In this document: positions 28,297-36,171 of the stretch, piece after piece
How positions within the stretch are numbered: position 1 is the first letter of the stretch
Layout: each line of letters starts with the position of its first letter
The notes under the pieces: generated by a model
The model's input: only the letters and a program-made list of their open reading frames with translations
Told to the model about the DNA's origin: nothing
Database searches by the model: none
Assembly (NCBI GenBank): GCA_019429445.1
Contig: JAHYIW010000007.1
Location: forward strand, 1-64,000
Direction: 5' to 3'
Source: Desulfuromonadaceae bacterium
Lineage (GTDB): Bacteria; Desulfobacterota; Desulfuromonadia; Desulfuromonadales; JAHYIW01
Length of the DNA stretch: 64,000 nucleotides
Translations under genes and position numbers: made by a program

Positions 28297-30834
<2,538 letters not shown>

Positions 30835-30836
30835 CC

Positions 30837-32468
30837 TCAGAGGCTCCACTGTAGTTCCATCGGGCGAACAACCTTCTCGATGAACGCAATTTCACTTACT
30901 GAGATGTCATATTTCGCGTAGAGGTCCTCGGCTGTCCATTTCCTGTCCCAATCTTGCGTGGGGACAAAGGTATAGACCTTGCGCGTGGTGTCTTGGGATG
31001 GTTTGTGTAGAAGAATCAGGAGGCGCGTCAACCGGCAAGAAAGGTAGGACAAAGCACTTTCTGCCTCACTCTTCGAGTCGAACGGGCCGATGCAGAGATA
31101 GGTCTCTGAAGAAATGCTGCCCGGTTCCCCGAGGAATGGTGTGCTGATAATTTTGTGCGGATAGGTGTCTTTGTTGCCGGTGCCAGGAGCAGCCCGGCCA
31201 ACGTAAATCTTCCACTTGTCAATGAGGTGCGTGTTAGACGAAATTGTGCTTCTAGCAACGTGTCCCTTACCGCCGTTCTGATAAACCATTACGTCACCGG
31301 CGCTCTTGGCAACCTTGCCCTTGAACGTTGTCTCTAGCCCGAATGGCTTTCGGGAACTGACTAATTGGTCGAAACGCTTGTTTTCTGGTAGCAAAAGCGA
31401 GTGGGTTTCCCCATTTTCGACAGCAGCGACCTTCTTGAGGATCGACAGACCTTCATTGAAGCGGATAAACACGTCCACCCCCTCTTCAAGCAGCTGACGG
31501 CAGGCCGTCGAATCAGGCCAGTCCTTGAAATGAGTGGTGACGCGGCATTGGCCGGGATTGTCCCGATCCCAAAGAAAGTAACAAACTCCCCCCTTGAGAC
31601 CCACCCCTGGAAAAACGTCCGCTGCGCTGAGATAATCGTCAATTGAGCGCAGGCGGTCGTCGCTGAGCATCGACTCTCGAAACTCATCCAGCCCCTTGCC
31701 CCCGGCAAACCAGCGGGCAGGGATAACCATCGACAGGTAGCGTGGCTCTAAAGCCTTTGCTTGCTCTACGAATAATTGATAGATGGGCGCGGCGCTCGTT
31801 CCGTATCCGCCATCGTCCAACTGGTACGGCGGATTGCCGATGATCACGTCAAACTGCATATCGTCTCCAAACAACTCGGCCATCCGAGTCTTGATGTTGT
31901 CAGTGTGAATGAGTGCGTAGGCGTGGGTTTCTAGCCCTTTGCCCCGGTCCAGTTCCGACTGGCTGGCACCGCAGAACGTGCATTTTCCGCTGGCCCATGT
32001 GTGCTCAACGCGCTCAAACCAGATGTTGCCTGTGTCACTCGTAAAGGATCTGGCAATGGAGTGCTGTCCACAGGCGTGCTTCGAGCAGTACAGGCTCCGG
32101 CGTGCCAGCAGGCTGGTGAGATGCGTGATACCGATACCGTACACCTGGTTGGTCAAAATATGTTCAACGCGATCCTCAAGGTCCGGAATTACGACTGCCA
32201 GACCTTTGGTAAGCCGACTGGTGATCTCACGCAAAAACACTCCCGATTTTGTGAACGGGTCGAGGAACCGCACCGAACTGTCCGCCCAGATGTTCGCGCC
32301 ATTATGGGCAGTCGCCCACGCCTCGGCGAGGGTATCGAGCATCCGGTTGGCGAACTCGGGCGGCGTGAACACCTCATCATTTGAGAGGTTCGCAATGCAG
32401 GTCAATACGTCAGGGTTGCGCCCACGAAGGGAAAAACTGACCTGTCTCGGGCCGGCGACGCTGTTCAT
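30837..32468 (-). CDS. Eco57I-type adenine-specific DNA methylase (large subunit)
   Basis: A 543-residue N6-adenine methyltransferase. It has the SAM motif in RFLDPFTKSGVFLREI, the catalytic motif in VIIGNPPYQL, a possible Zn site (CSKHACGQHS with CTFCGASQ), and a C-terminal target-recognition-like half. ATG 32468 is preferred (GGGGAG upstream) and overlaps the stop of the GIY-YIG gene as ATGA. It should modify the host target that the helicase/nuclease subunit attacks when unmodified. The specificity cannot be inferred. Confidence 0.88.
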   Translation of the reverse strand: MNSVAGPRQVSFSLRGRNPDVLTCIANLSNDEVFTPPEFANRMLDTLAEAWATAHNGANIWADSSVRFLDPFTKSGVFLREITSRLTKGLAVVIPDLEDRVEHILTNQVYGIGITHLTSLLARRSLYCSKHACGQHSIARSFTSDTGNIWFERVEHTWASGKCTFCGASQSELDRGKGLETHAYALIHTDNIKTRMAELFGDDMQFDVIIGNPPYQLDDGGYGTSAAPIYQLFVEQAKALEPRYLSMVIPARWFAGGKGLDEFRESMLSDDRLRSIDDYLSAADVFPGVGLKGGVCYFLWDRDNPGQCRVTTHFKDWPDSTACRQLLEEGVDVFIRFNEGLSILKKVAAVENGETHSLLLPENKRFDQLVSSRKPFGLETTFKGKVAKSAGDVMVYQNGGKGHVARSTISSNTHLIDKWKIYVGRAAPGTGNKDTYPHKIISTPFLGEPGSISSETYLCIGPFDSKSEAESALSYLSCRLTRLLILLHKPSQDTTRKVYTFVPTQDWDRKWTAEDLYAKYDISVSEIAFIEKVVRPMELQWSL

Positions 32469-32929
32469 AGGCACTCCCCATCGTCATTACGTGCAATGGA
32501 TTCCGCGACTGCGCGCGGAATGACAGGATGTATTGTGACATCCTGCACGAAGTCAGACTTGTCACCCTGCGCGAAGTCAGACTTGTCACCCTGCGCGAAG
32601 TCAGACTTGTCACCCTGCGCGAAGTCGCAGGGTCCAGAATCGATCCAGTCTGCAGCCAGGTCAACCCAGTCCGGGTTGCTCTTTTCAATCAGGTCAATCT
32701 TCCATTGCCTGTTTCGGTTCTTGATCTTCTTCTCAAGACGTATTGCCGAGGCAATATCATCGCCGTGGGCGAACCAGACCAAACGAGTCACATCATATTT
32801 GCTGGTGAACCCCTCAAGCAGATGATGCTTGTGCTGGTATATGCGCTGCTCCAGATTACTGGTAACGCCAGTGTACAAGGTGCCATTTTTCTTACTGGCA
32901 AGAATATACACAAAAGCCTGTTTCGTCAT
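32465..32929 (-). CDS. Single-domain GIY-YIG nuclease with repeat-encoded tail
   Basis: A 154-residue protein. The first ~90 residues are a complete GIY-YIG domain: FVYILASKKNGTLYTGVTSN, the catalytic Arg in EQRIYQHK, the Glu in AIRLEKKIK, then WKIDLIEKSNPDW. The tail (from ~residue 100) is translated 24-bp repeat DNA, giving DFAQGDKS three times, then VIPRAVAESIARNDD. Its start overlaps the KilA-N gene by ATGA and its stop overlaps the methylase start by ATGA. The nuclease part is bracketed by 34-bp inverted repeats (32608-32641 and 32948-32981), which suggests a mobile cassette. Confidence 0.85.
   Translation of the reverse strand: MTKQAFVYILASKKNGTLYTGVTSNLEQRIYQHKHHLLEGFTSKYDVTRLVWFAHGDDIASAIRLEKKIKNRNRQWKIDLIEKSNPDWVDLAADWIDSGPCDFAQGDKSDFAQGDKSDFAQGDKSDFVQDVTIHPVIPRAVAESIARNDDGECL
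32535..32626. repeat. 24-bp tandem array, left
   Basis: Three full copies of GAAGTCAGACTTGTCACCCTGCGC (24 bases) start at 32549, 32573 and 32597, with partial copies at both ends. Because 24 is a multiple of 3 the array stays open in frame and encodes DFAQGDKS repeats in the GIY-YIG tail. The array extends outward from the left 34-bp inverted-repeat arm. Next to it (32497-32526) is a related palindrome (ATTCCGCG..CGCGCGGAAT). Confidence 0.9.
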
Positions 32930-32981
32930 TGCACACCTGCCAGAATAGATTCTGGATCCTGCGACTTCGCGCAGGATGACA
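32608..32981. mobile_element. Putative mobile unit: GIY-YIG gene between 34-bp inverted repeats
   Basis: The left arm (32608-32641) and right arm (32948-32981) are inverted copies matching at 32 of 34 positions. Each contains the palindrome CCTGCGACTTCGCGCAGG and ends in TGACA. The 306 bases between them hold just the start and catalytic domain of the GIY-YIG gene. The arms lead outward into 24-bp tandem arrays. No transposase is present, so movement by the encoded nuclease is inference. Confidence 0.6.
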
Positions 32982-33387
32982 CGAAATGCTCCGCGCAGGA
33001 TGACACGAAATGCTCCGCGCAGGATGACACGAAATGCTCCGCGCAGGATGACACGAAATGCTTCGCGCAGGATGACACGAAATGCTTCGCGCAGAATGAC
33101 ACGAAATGCTCCGCGCAGAATGACTCAATTGTTTTGTTCCCCTTGCTGCCGGATTGATTTTTAACCGTATCGAATTCGACACGGTTAAAATTCGGATTAT
33201 TCAACATCTTCCAAATACCCAGGAATTCGATGGATGAACGCGTACGCATCCAGTTCTGGATGACAAACCTCGGATCATCGGCATTCTTGAACTTGGCGAT
33301 ATCCGTCAGAGAAATAAAATCATCCTGATCAATCCTCTGGATGCGGATGGTTTCATTTAACACAACAATCTGGCTGTTCTTGCTCAT
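32926..33387 (-). CDS. KilA-N domain protein, C-terminal part replaced by tandem repeats
   Basis: A 153-residue product. Residues 1-~85 match the start of a KilA-N DNA-binding domain (DDFISLTDIAKFKNADDPRF, NWMRTRSSIEFLGIW, NPNFNRVEFDTVKNQSGS). The expected second half of the domain (the region with a Trp-Ile motif and an Ala-rich helix) is absent. From ~residue 92 the protein is eight-residue repeats of the CAEHFVSS type, encoded by the 24-bp array. It is probably a truncated, non-functional gene whose frame is kept open by the repeats. It overlaps the GIY-YIG start by 4 bases. Confidence 0.75.
   Translation of the reverse strand: MSKNSQIVVLNETIRIQRIDQDDFISLTDIAKFKNADDPRFVIQNWMRTRSSIEFLGIWKMLNNPNFNRVEFDTVKNQSGSKGNKTIESFCAEHFVSFCAKHFVSSCAKHFVSSCAEHFVSSCAEHFVSSCAEHFVSSCAKSQDPESILAGVQ
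32969..33124. repeat. 24-bp tandem array, right
   Basis: Units beginning GCGCAGGATGACACGAAATG start at 32969, 32993, 33017, 33041, 33065, 33089 and 33113 (six full, one half). Point differences (CTCC or CTTC, GG or GA) separate the copies. The first 13 bases match the left array unit read on the other strand; the other 11 bases differ. The array extends outward from the right inverted-repeat arm into the KilA-N gene. Confidence 0.95.
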
Positions 33388-34416: not shown

Positions 34417-34719
34417 TTAAAACTCAGAAAGTTGCGTTTCAATATCCATATGTCTGTGCAGAACACGGACAATCTCAATCGTATCGGCAAGAGTTTGACG
34501 ATAGAAAATCACATGGCTACCAGTATTCAACTTCCGGTAGCCAATTCGAAGCTCACTGCAATCTTTCCCTTTCAGCTGGTTGGCAGCCAACTGCTGGAAT
34601 GAAATGTCCAGCATTTTCAGATAGAGGTCGCGCTGTTCACGCCCCCAACGGGTTTGTGTGAAACGACCGATCTCTTTCAAATCAGCCAGCGCCATGTTCG
34701 TGAGGGTAAAAGAGGACAT
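34417..34719 (-). CDS. parE: ParE-type toxin of a toxin-antitoxin pair
   Basis: A 100-residue RelE/ParE-superfamily protein: LTNMALADLKEIGRFTQTRW (the typical first helix pair), LRIGYRKLNTGSHVIFYR and IEIVRVLHRHMD. ParE toxins poison DNA gyrase. It follows parD with a 1-base stop/start overlap (TGATG), the usual coupled arrangement. The length and motifs look intact. Confidence 0.92.
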   Translation of the reverse strand: MSSFTLTNMALADLKEIGRFTQTRWGREQRDLYLKMLDISFQQLAANQLKGKDCSELRIGYRKLNTGSHVIFYRQTLADTIEIVRVLHRHMDIETQLSEF

Positions 34720-34961
34720 CAGTGGGAGCTGTCATCGTCAAGCTCAGCAAGTACGCTCTTGAGCGAATAATCTGCCGTGCCGCTTTCTTCGCCCTCAATA
34801 AGCGCACGGCGTAGCAAGGACAGTTTGGTCTCCCGTTCTTCCAAAAGCCGCAGGCCGGCACGGATTGTCTCACTTGCTGAACCAAAACGTCCCTGGGCAA
34901 CCTGCTGAGAAATGAAATTTTCGTAGTGTTTGCCAAGCGTAACACTGGTATTTTTTTGCAT
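34719..34961 (-). CDS. parD: ParD-type antitoxin
   Basis: An 80-residue ribbon-helix-helix antitoxin of the CC2985 type: SVTLGKHYENFISQQVAQGR followed by FGSASETIRAGLRLLEE, then an acidic toxin-binding tail (LAELDDDSSH). It binds ParE and represses its own operon. A near-palindromic site lies just upstream over the expected transcription start. Confidence 0.92.
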   Translation of the reverse strand: MQKNTSVTLGKHYENFISQQVAQGRFGSASETIRAGLRLLEERETKLSLLRRALIEGEESGTADYSLKSVLAELDDDSSH

Positions 34962-35094: not shown

Positions 35095-36171
35095 TCATGC
35101 CCCGTTATTCCCGTCCAACAGCTTTTTTATTTCCCGGTCAAAATCAGACTCAAAAAGCCGGTCTTGAATAGGTCGGTATTTTTCAAATTCGCTTTCGGCA
35201 AACGATTTGGCTATCTCAGCGGTTACTTTGCCTGCGTCCTGCAAGATTTCTGCGTCATTAAATTTCAAAAAAGCGTTCAACTTATCTGCCCAGTCATTCA
35301 TGGTCATGGGAATACCCCGTTCTGCCTGATTTTCTGCATAATCGAGGTACATAGTGACAATTCTATTTAAAAACTTGATCTCTTTTTCATTCAGATAATT
35401 TTTCGCAATCACAACATCTGATTTTAATATTTTTCCTTCGGGAGCTTTTTCCCATGTCGTAAGACCCATAAAATCTTTTTGATGATTGACACGATTCACA
35501 ATAAGTTCAGCAGCAGTGTGACCGTGGGTGGCAAAATGCATTTTATTTTGGACTGTCGCAAAAAATGTTTTTGTTGTAGGTGAATGCAGATCATAATCGA
35601 GTGCGGTGGCGTATATATCAGTAATCTGCTGATAAAAATTACGCTCGCTTTCCCTGATATCACGAATTTCAAGAATCAAATCCTTGAAATATTGGTTGCT
35701 TAGAAATGCACCATTTTTGAGGCGAATATTATCGAGAACATATCCACGAAGTGTAAAATCTTTTAAAACTTGCCCTGCCCATTTTCTAAAATGAGTAGCT
35801 CGTTCTGAATTGACCCGAAAACCAACGGCAATGATACCCTGCAAACCATAATGTTCGATTTTTCGGGTAACTTCACGGGTCCCTTCGTTTTGAACTATTC
35901 GAAATTTTCGAATAGTTGCCTCAGATTGCAGTTCCCCGGTATTAAATATTTCCTTCAGGTGATAGTTAATCGTATTGACCTCAACGCCAAAGAGCTTGGC
36001 AATGAGCTTTTGAGTAAGCCAGACGTTTTCATCTTCGACACGAACTTCAATATCATCTTCGCCAGCCTGACTGGTGAAAATCAAAAATTCCGCCGTTGAA
36101 TTACGAATACGTAATTGTGGATTATGGTTAAGCTCAGATAAATCGGGCGTTGCCATCTTTAATTTATCCAT
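35095..36171 (-). CDS. rhuM: RhuM family protein
   Basis: A 358-residue protein of the RhuM family. It begins with DIEVRVEDENVWLTQKLIAKLFGVEVNTINYHL (split; a winged-helix-like stretch), then EVTRKIEHYGLQGIIAVGFRV and FRKWAGQVLKDFTLRGYVLD, the family core, and a helical C-terminal half with HFATHGHTAAELIVNRV and YLDYAENQAERGIPMTM. First described on a Salmonella pathogenicity island; a role in virulence is not proven and many members sit in defence islands. Its AT-rich codons suggest recent acquisition. It marks the right edge of the island beside aroK. Confidence 0.88.
   Translation of the reverse strand: MDKLKMATPDLSELNHNPQLRIRNSTAEFLIFTSQAGEDDIEVRVEDENVWLTQKLIAKLFGVEVNTINYHLKEIFNTGELQSEATIRKFRIVQNEGTREVTRKIEHYGLQGIIAVGFRVNSERATHFRKWAGQVLKDFTLRGYVLDNIRLKNGAFLSNQYFKDLILEIRDIRESERNFYQQITDIYATALDYDLHSPTTKTFFATVQNKMHFATHGHTAAELIVNRVNHQKDFMGLTTWEKAPEGKILKSDVVIAKNYLNEKEIKFLNRIVTMYLDYAENQAERGIPMTMNDWADKLNAFLKFNDAEILQDAGKVTAEIAKSFAESEFEKYRPIQDRLFESDFDREIKKLLDGNNGA

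Follow-up and report, generated by a model that had tools for sequence, protein, structure and literature searches.

The window (the whole stretch of 64,000 nucleotides analysed here) contains a gene for a small GIY-YIG protein that lies between two facing copies of a palindromic repeat. We interpret this locus, with a probability of roughly two in three, as the gene of a GIY-YIG nuclease accompanied by its cognate CGTC-tagged REPs, in an arrangement like that of a REPtron in which the GIY-YIG enzyme would replace the HUH tyrosine transposase; nicking of the hairpins and spread driven by repair are its presumed mode of action. Across many phyla, genes of this clade are linked with tagged palindromes.

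Features of the locus

The 154-aa ORF (Table 1) matches PF01541 with an E value of 5.4e-16 over residues 5-78 (Pfam), and Y8, Y19, R29, E66 and N85 are invariant in 22 aligned sequences; the Tyr, Arg, Glu and Asn of the GIY-YIG domain are the residues that we take to have catalytic roles. By its domain and these invariant residues the predicted protein qualifies as a member of the GIY-YIG nuclease superfamily. Only 1zg2 and 1ywl were found among solved structures related to it by sequence. Judged from the homologs, the conserved core comprises approximately positions 32639-32929 (approximately residues 1-97) and lies between two 28-nt hairpins, as foreseen in the original prediction, according to which the arms enclose the catalytic part of a one-domain GIY-YIG gene. 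The last ~57 residues of the ORF are a translation through the left repeats and are absent from the homologous core.

Table 1. Features of the GIY-YIG locus and its immediate neighbours in the window
Feature	Position	Strand	Remarks
Eco57I-type methylase gene	30837..32474	-	start ~20 bp beyond the third palindrome
GIY-YIG nuclease ORF, 154 aa	32465..32929	-	PF01541 and alignment of homologs
Third palindrome GTCATTCCGCGCGCAGTCGCGGAATCCA	32497..32524	-	head-to-head with the left arm; read directly from the sequence
Left tandem array, 24-bp units	32536..32626 (approximate)	+	unit = tag-side palindrome half + 7 nt
Left CGTC-type REP arm GTCACCCTGCGCGAAGTCGCAGGGTCCA	32609..32636	+	tag outwards, tail towards gene; DNA hairpin -8.9 kcal/mol, z -4.4
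Right CGTC-type REP arm GTCATCCTGCGCGAAGTCGCAGGATCCA	32953..32980	-	tag outwards, tail towards gene; DNA hairpin -7.9 kcal/mol, z -3.8
Right tandem array, 24-bp units	32965..33132 (outer end approximate)	-	unit = tag-side palindrome half + 7 nt
KilA-N gene remnant, ~81 aa	33143..33387	-	cut at the edge of the right array; same-genus homolog 275 aa

The 34-base arms at 32608-32641 (plus strand) and 32948-32981 (minus strand) are inverted, face each other and are identical at 32 of 34 positions. The palindrome CCTGCGACTTCGCGCAGG has two exact matches in the window (32614-32631, minus strand; 32958-32975, plus strand); arms and palindrome are as originally described. When three mismatches were allowed, 0.05 occurrences were expected from shuffled sequences, and 0 of 100 shuffles reached two. 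Within each arm a 28-nt element can be recognized that consists, in the predicted fold, of a GTC tag, an 8-bp stem, a 6-nt loop and a CCA tail. The two mismatches between the arms fall on positions 5 and 24 of this element, which are each other's partners in the predicted hairpin; the pair is C-G in one arm and T-A in the other, a compensatory change within the sequence itself.

Three copies of the 28-nt element (at most 3 mismatches) were found in the organism's own genome (2.9 Mb, 64 contigs), namely the two arms and one copy on contig 27, and the same search yielded 14 and 17 copies in two genomes of the same order (G173 and G183, respectively) and none in six others. Because the repeat is nearly confined to the window locus, no recent spread is visible in this genome. 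The copy on contig 27 (L259:686-744) belongs to a tail-to-tail REP pair without the gene, which lies in frame within an ORF; from a reading of the protein, this ORF resembles a type I restriction specificity subunit, with the REP pair between its two halves.

Each arm is the inner end of a tandem array of 24-bp units, which the original prediction had overlooked along with the third palindrome, and both arrays repeat the same half of the palindrome, beginning within the loop. For the upstream KilA-N ORF, similarity to the homolog in the same-genus genome G148 breaks off at 33143, where the right array has its outer edge, and similarity to a second KilA-N-like gene in the organism's own genome breaks off at that base too. 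The 3' part of the window gene is missing, so that the event at this locus was no simple insertion into the restriction operon. It had been proposed that the insertion took place after the operon had formed, with ATGA overlaps kept on both sides; as both overlaps stem from ORFs that run through the repeats, the argument from the operon fails, whereas that for the unit stands. The methylase gene found no DNA match among the genomes of 37 relatives, so that the empty site of the window operon itself is not visible.

Further observations were made in the surroundings. The KilA-N remnant contains a 19-bp inverted repeat (33156-33193), which is matched, in inverted orientation, in the intact gene of G148. 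The N-terminus of the helicase gene product (28297-30849) resembles a T5orf172/GIY-YIG-type domain in our own reading, while Pfam gave only ResIII. Upstream of the restriction cluster lie a ParD/ParE toxin-antitoxin pair (34417-34961) and a RhuM-family gene (35095-36171).

Comparison with relatives

A survey for homologs yielded at least 583 stretches matching the pattern, of which 579 were confirmed; the best 80 loci were retained, and 77 of them could be used in the comparison of flanks, the flanks of the other three being too short. As the top-scoring hits of an alignment headed by the window protein, these 80 loci are no random draw of the family. According to the record titles of the matches listed, homologs occur in many phyla. 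Without any assumed motif, an inverted match between the flanks with a score of at least 14 was found at 54 of the 77 best-match loci. The corresponding figures were 2 of 770 for placements elsewhere in these loci and 16 of 863 for control ORFs called mechanically in them. A tagged arm in any orientation was present within 150-180 bp of the gene at 62 of the 77, compared with 50 of the 863 control ORFs. It had been expected that the arms flank genes of this GIY-YIG family more often than chance allows, which is borne out by these figures; the opposite pattern, arms that are common and have no link to GIY-YIG genes, was looked for in the relatives and was not found.

Within the phylum of the window organism, strong homologs had a tagged arm in 24 of 45 cases and an inverted match in 26 of 45. 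Among 21 weaker GIY-YIG matches no tagged arm was found (0/21), and the three that had an inverted match of at least 14 had it without the tag. The association has exceptions: 23 of the best 77 loci had no inverted match at the threshold and 15 no tagged arm, the corresponding numbers in the same-phylum set being 19/45 and 21/45. Some loci that lack the strict tag hold related forms, e.g., GTCATTGCGAG..GCAATCTC. Both arms were present in the canonical orientation at 31 of the 80 best-match loci.

REPs might also be passive, forming RNA hairpins or terminators beside any gene. CGTC REPs are indeed described as mainly intergenic and in many cases plausibly transcribed by Di Nocera et al. (2013; PMC3733652), but arms occur near so few of the control ORFs, as compared with genes of the best-match clade, that we consider this explanation exceedingly improbable. 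It also fails to account for orientation: for left-hand arms within 500 bp, the tail of the nearest one faces the gene at 36 of 50 loci, and for right-hand arms at 43 of 61.

Arms of the same locus resemble each other: the mean similarity of the inner arms was 0.848, compared with 0.632 for shuffled pairs (0 of 10000 permutations; 31 loci). When 31 distinct arms were chosen solely by their tag and length, pairing was found in 182 of 186 inner stem cells, compared with a mean of 151 after shuffling. Protein similarity and arm similarity were correlated (Mantel r 0.38, 7/10000), a signal that shared descent of gene and repeats would yield as well.

With a cut-off of E ≤1.3e-13 for strong homologs, 35 of 148 genomes of the phylum were positive for the gene. 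One stem type was present in at least 10 copies in 19 of these 35 genomes and in 16 of the 113 genomes without the gene (Fisher's exact test, P = 4.7e-6, an optimistic value because the genomes are related), and in at least 40 copies in 15/35 and 4/113, respectively. The same stem type was absent from 11 of the 35 genomes with the gene, occurred at least once in 35 of the 113 without it, and reached 240 copies in one genome (G111) in which no gene was detected.

Repeat dimers and dispersal

A long direct repeat (score of at least 30) is shared by the two flanks of the gene at 22 of the 77 best-match loci, compared with 2 of 292 control placements. At 19 of these 22 loci it contains at least one tag, and at eight it contains tags in both directions and is thus dimer-like. 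In the complete planctomycete chromosome CP087563.1 the gene occurs once, and the 47-base core of the dimer flanking it occurs 42 times (at most 3 mismatches; reversed control: 0), with one of the 42 copies beside the gene. Among 12 copies inspected, 11 have a tag-to-tag length of exactly 85 bp, and the other one bears a TGTC tag, which lies outside the tag pattern used. The flanks of these dimers are mostly dissimilar, and 10 of the 12 lack a matching inverted stretch outside the tags. The remaining two (L310 and L319) lie within an additional inverted stretch, ATTAATCTCC..GGAGATTAAT, outside the tags.

Not every genome has its whole dimers dispersed: in Winogradskyella endarachnes (L193) the full 147-bp dimer is found only twice, both times beside the gene, and it is single arms that are dispersed. 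In genome G173 gene and dimer together are repeated in tandem, and two contigs of this genome break off within such a copy. When gene copies within one genome were compared, they had mainly the gene itself in common. REPs of the dispersed type flank the gene in the planctomycete and in G173; of the type that flanks it in the window genome there is one further copy only.

In G173 and G183 (L083-L112) the REP dimer is the core of a ~210-bp element that ends in inverted repeats of ~24 bp, i.e., a MITE carrying REPs; about nine copies, inspected by eye, have apparent target duplications of 7-12 bp. As many of the repeat copies in these two genomes lie inside this element, some of the spread was probably brought about by another transposase. 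This would suit an explanation by hitch-hiking, in which DDE transposases spread the repeats as parts of MITEs and the nuclease gene merely accumulates beside them. The planctomycete dimers, with their fixed length and in most cases no inverted stretch outside the tags, speak against it, as do the correlation between arm and gene sequences and the lack of tagged arms at the weaker GIY-YIG genes, and we regard it as improbable. The reading of gene clade and palindromes as a linked unit, put forward in the original prediction, is supported by relatives that are bracketed far above controls, by dimers dispersed in some genomes and by orthologous sites that are free of the gene.

Occupied and gene-free sites

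A site between fnrL and a response-regulator gene is matched in full, in its filled form, by seven plasmid records of Sphingobium, and the four of these that were aligned contain the gene and the arms. At the same site, Sphingobium TYG64 and TYG74 have instead a single double-tagged palindrome composed of the outer halves of both arms. In TYG65 there is one palindrome in degenerate form; TYG72 and S. herbicidovorans have no such palindrome. In TYG73 the gene is frame-broken: the homolog match joins two pieces, and the alignment has a one-base gap. In Shinella, strains HZN7 and WSC3-e have the gene and the repeats; the corresponding stretch in S. oryzae and Shinella sp. H4-D48 lacks both the gene and a tagged arm. 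Judged by their sequences, the Sphingobium and Shinella sites would fit a gain or a loss of the gene alike.

The double-tagged palindrome was considered as a general scar and rejected: tag-tag forms occurred once and tag-tail forms 218 times in 1.28 Mb of loci, and being so rare they are not the usual remnant. Cargo of phages or plasmids was likewise rejected, as the gene was found in 0 of 50,697 phage records and in 33 of 72,556 plasmid records (70 kb to 4.9 Mb). A set of 2.9 million viral contigs held 27 confirmed loci of the gene. Another defence neighbourhood surrounds the homolog on plasmid p1 of Planktothrix agardhii (L223), where the gene has MmeI, encoding a type IIL restriction enzyme, on one side and drmA, the helicase gene of DISARM, on the other.

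In a comparison of four gene pairs, which are few and close, dN was always lower than dS (Shinella, 0.018/0.145; Sphingobium, 0.017/0.098, 0.004/0.047 and 0.022/0.048).

Relation to known systems

According to PMC3733652, CGTC REPs have a tag CGTC or TGTC, a stem of 8-9 bp starting with AT and a tail that is mostly CCA, and they often form dimers; the loop has 4 or 5 nt in most families, some families having other loops, and copies inside genes are also described. The arms of the window match them in the TGTC tag, the 8-bp stem and the CCA tail, which are present in both arms. They differ from them in that the stem of the left arm starts with AC, in that the predicted loop of 6 nt exceeds that of most families, and in that the genome holds 3 copies instead of many dispersed ones. 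In 2013 these REPs were said to be without a dedicated transposase, whereas they are tied here to a GIY-YIG clade. The term GIY-YIG has 0 occurrences in PMC3733652, and our literature search found no paper that links GIY-YIG to CGTC-type repeats.

The closest architecture is that of the RAYT REPtrons. Like the loci of the window type, REPtrons and REPINs combine the gene of a DNA-cutting enzyme with adjacent palindromes whose dimers are dispersed in the genome; they differ in that a HUH tyrosine transposase with GTAG repeats stands where the window locus has a GIY-YIG hydrolase and the CGTC tag (PMC2817692, PMC3116915 and PMC3733652).

GIY-YIG proteins of the UPF0213/YhbQ type belong to the same domain family as the window protein. 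The 21 weaker GIY-YIG genes mentioned above, which are not proven to be UPF0213, differ from the window clade in having no tagged arms. A homing endonuclease was considered as well. Such an enzyme should cut the uninterrupted site, with its element interrupting that target, which we presume would be the palindrome, yet complete palindromes persist on both sides of the window gene and of many of its relatives, and this reading was therefore rejected.

Ssn, a GIY-YIG nuclease of Neisseria, reportedly cuts single-stranded DNA site-specifically at the NTS repeat, according to work of Chenal and colleagues dated 2025; the same study is said to have found many homologs with matching target sequences and a modulation of natural transformation by Ssn. 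Like Ssn, the window protein is a small one-domain GIY-YIG protein. Its homolog in N. gonorrhoeae is 58% identical to it over 91 residues and has repeats of the GTCATTCCC..GGGAAT type on both sides of its gene, of the same tag type as the window arms. The dimer-gene-dimer layout and the tie to CGTC REPs are not known to be part of the Ssn system.

These observations bear on an alternative in which the nuclease serves the host. By cutting single-stranded DNA at the repeats it would tune DNA uptake or recombination, and the repeats would be marks, with nothing selfish or mobile about them. Ssn would reportedly be a precedent for such a role, and both the gonococcal homolog with its repeats and the low dN relative to dS are in keeping with it. 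It leaves unexplained, however, the long direct repeats around the gene, the dispersed dimers of fixed length, the tandem gene copies and the low copy number of the repeat in the genome of the window, and we consider it unlikely.

Proposed mechanism and implications

We return to the reading as a nuclease gene with its cognate REPs. By analogy, the GIY-YIG enzyme is likely to be a single-strand nuclease specific for the hairpins of the REPs with which it lives; that these REPs spread through cutting and repair by the host is plausible. The enzyme would recognize its own hairpin as single-stranded DNA and nick it, as is reportedly the case for Ssn, with cuts arising while DNA is replicated or taken up. 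Through repair by the host and recombination of one dimer with another, repeats, and at times the intervening gene, would then be copied, amplified or deleted. At the window locus, the unit would have come to lie between the truncated KilA-N gene and the methylase gene, with tandem amplification of the half-palindromes at either outer end. The window arrays, which start from the loop, and the double-tagged palindrome of Sphingobium, which is joined near the loop, would fit breakage in the loop; slippage would give the same result. GIY-YIG enzymes hydrolyse DNA, and no strand-transfer activity is known among them, so that DNA transposition by such an enzyme unaided would not be possible.

A wider reading, which we offer as possible if somewhat doubtful, is that the CGTC REPs of several phyla are miniature mobile elements, and that a dedicated hydrolytic GIY-YIG single-strand nuclease spreads the dimers and its own gene via cutting and copying by host repair, the gene being kept between dimers as between LTRs.

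If Ssn acts as reported, recognition of the repeat by the nuclease is already known, and the additions made here are the tie to the CGTC class of REPs, the direct repeats and dimers around the gene together with the dispersed dimers, the clade control and the gene-free sites. The GIY-YIG clade is a good candidate for the missing partner of the CGTC REPs, which were reported in 2013 (PMC3733652) as having no dedicated transposase, and the clade-specific link between these repeats and one nuclease family makes it a directly testable one. If the nuclease drives the spread, a GIY-YIG enzyme that is purely hydrolytic would be carrying out a task for which only HUH transposases are known, and the variants of the repeat found next to each gene would provide a ready list of enzyme-target pairs for site-specific cutting of single strands.
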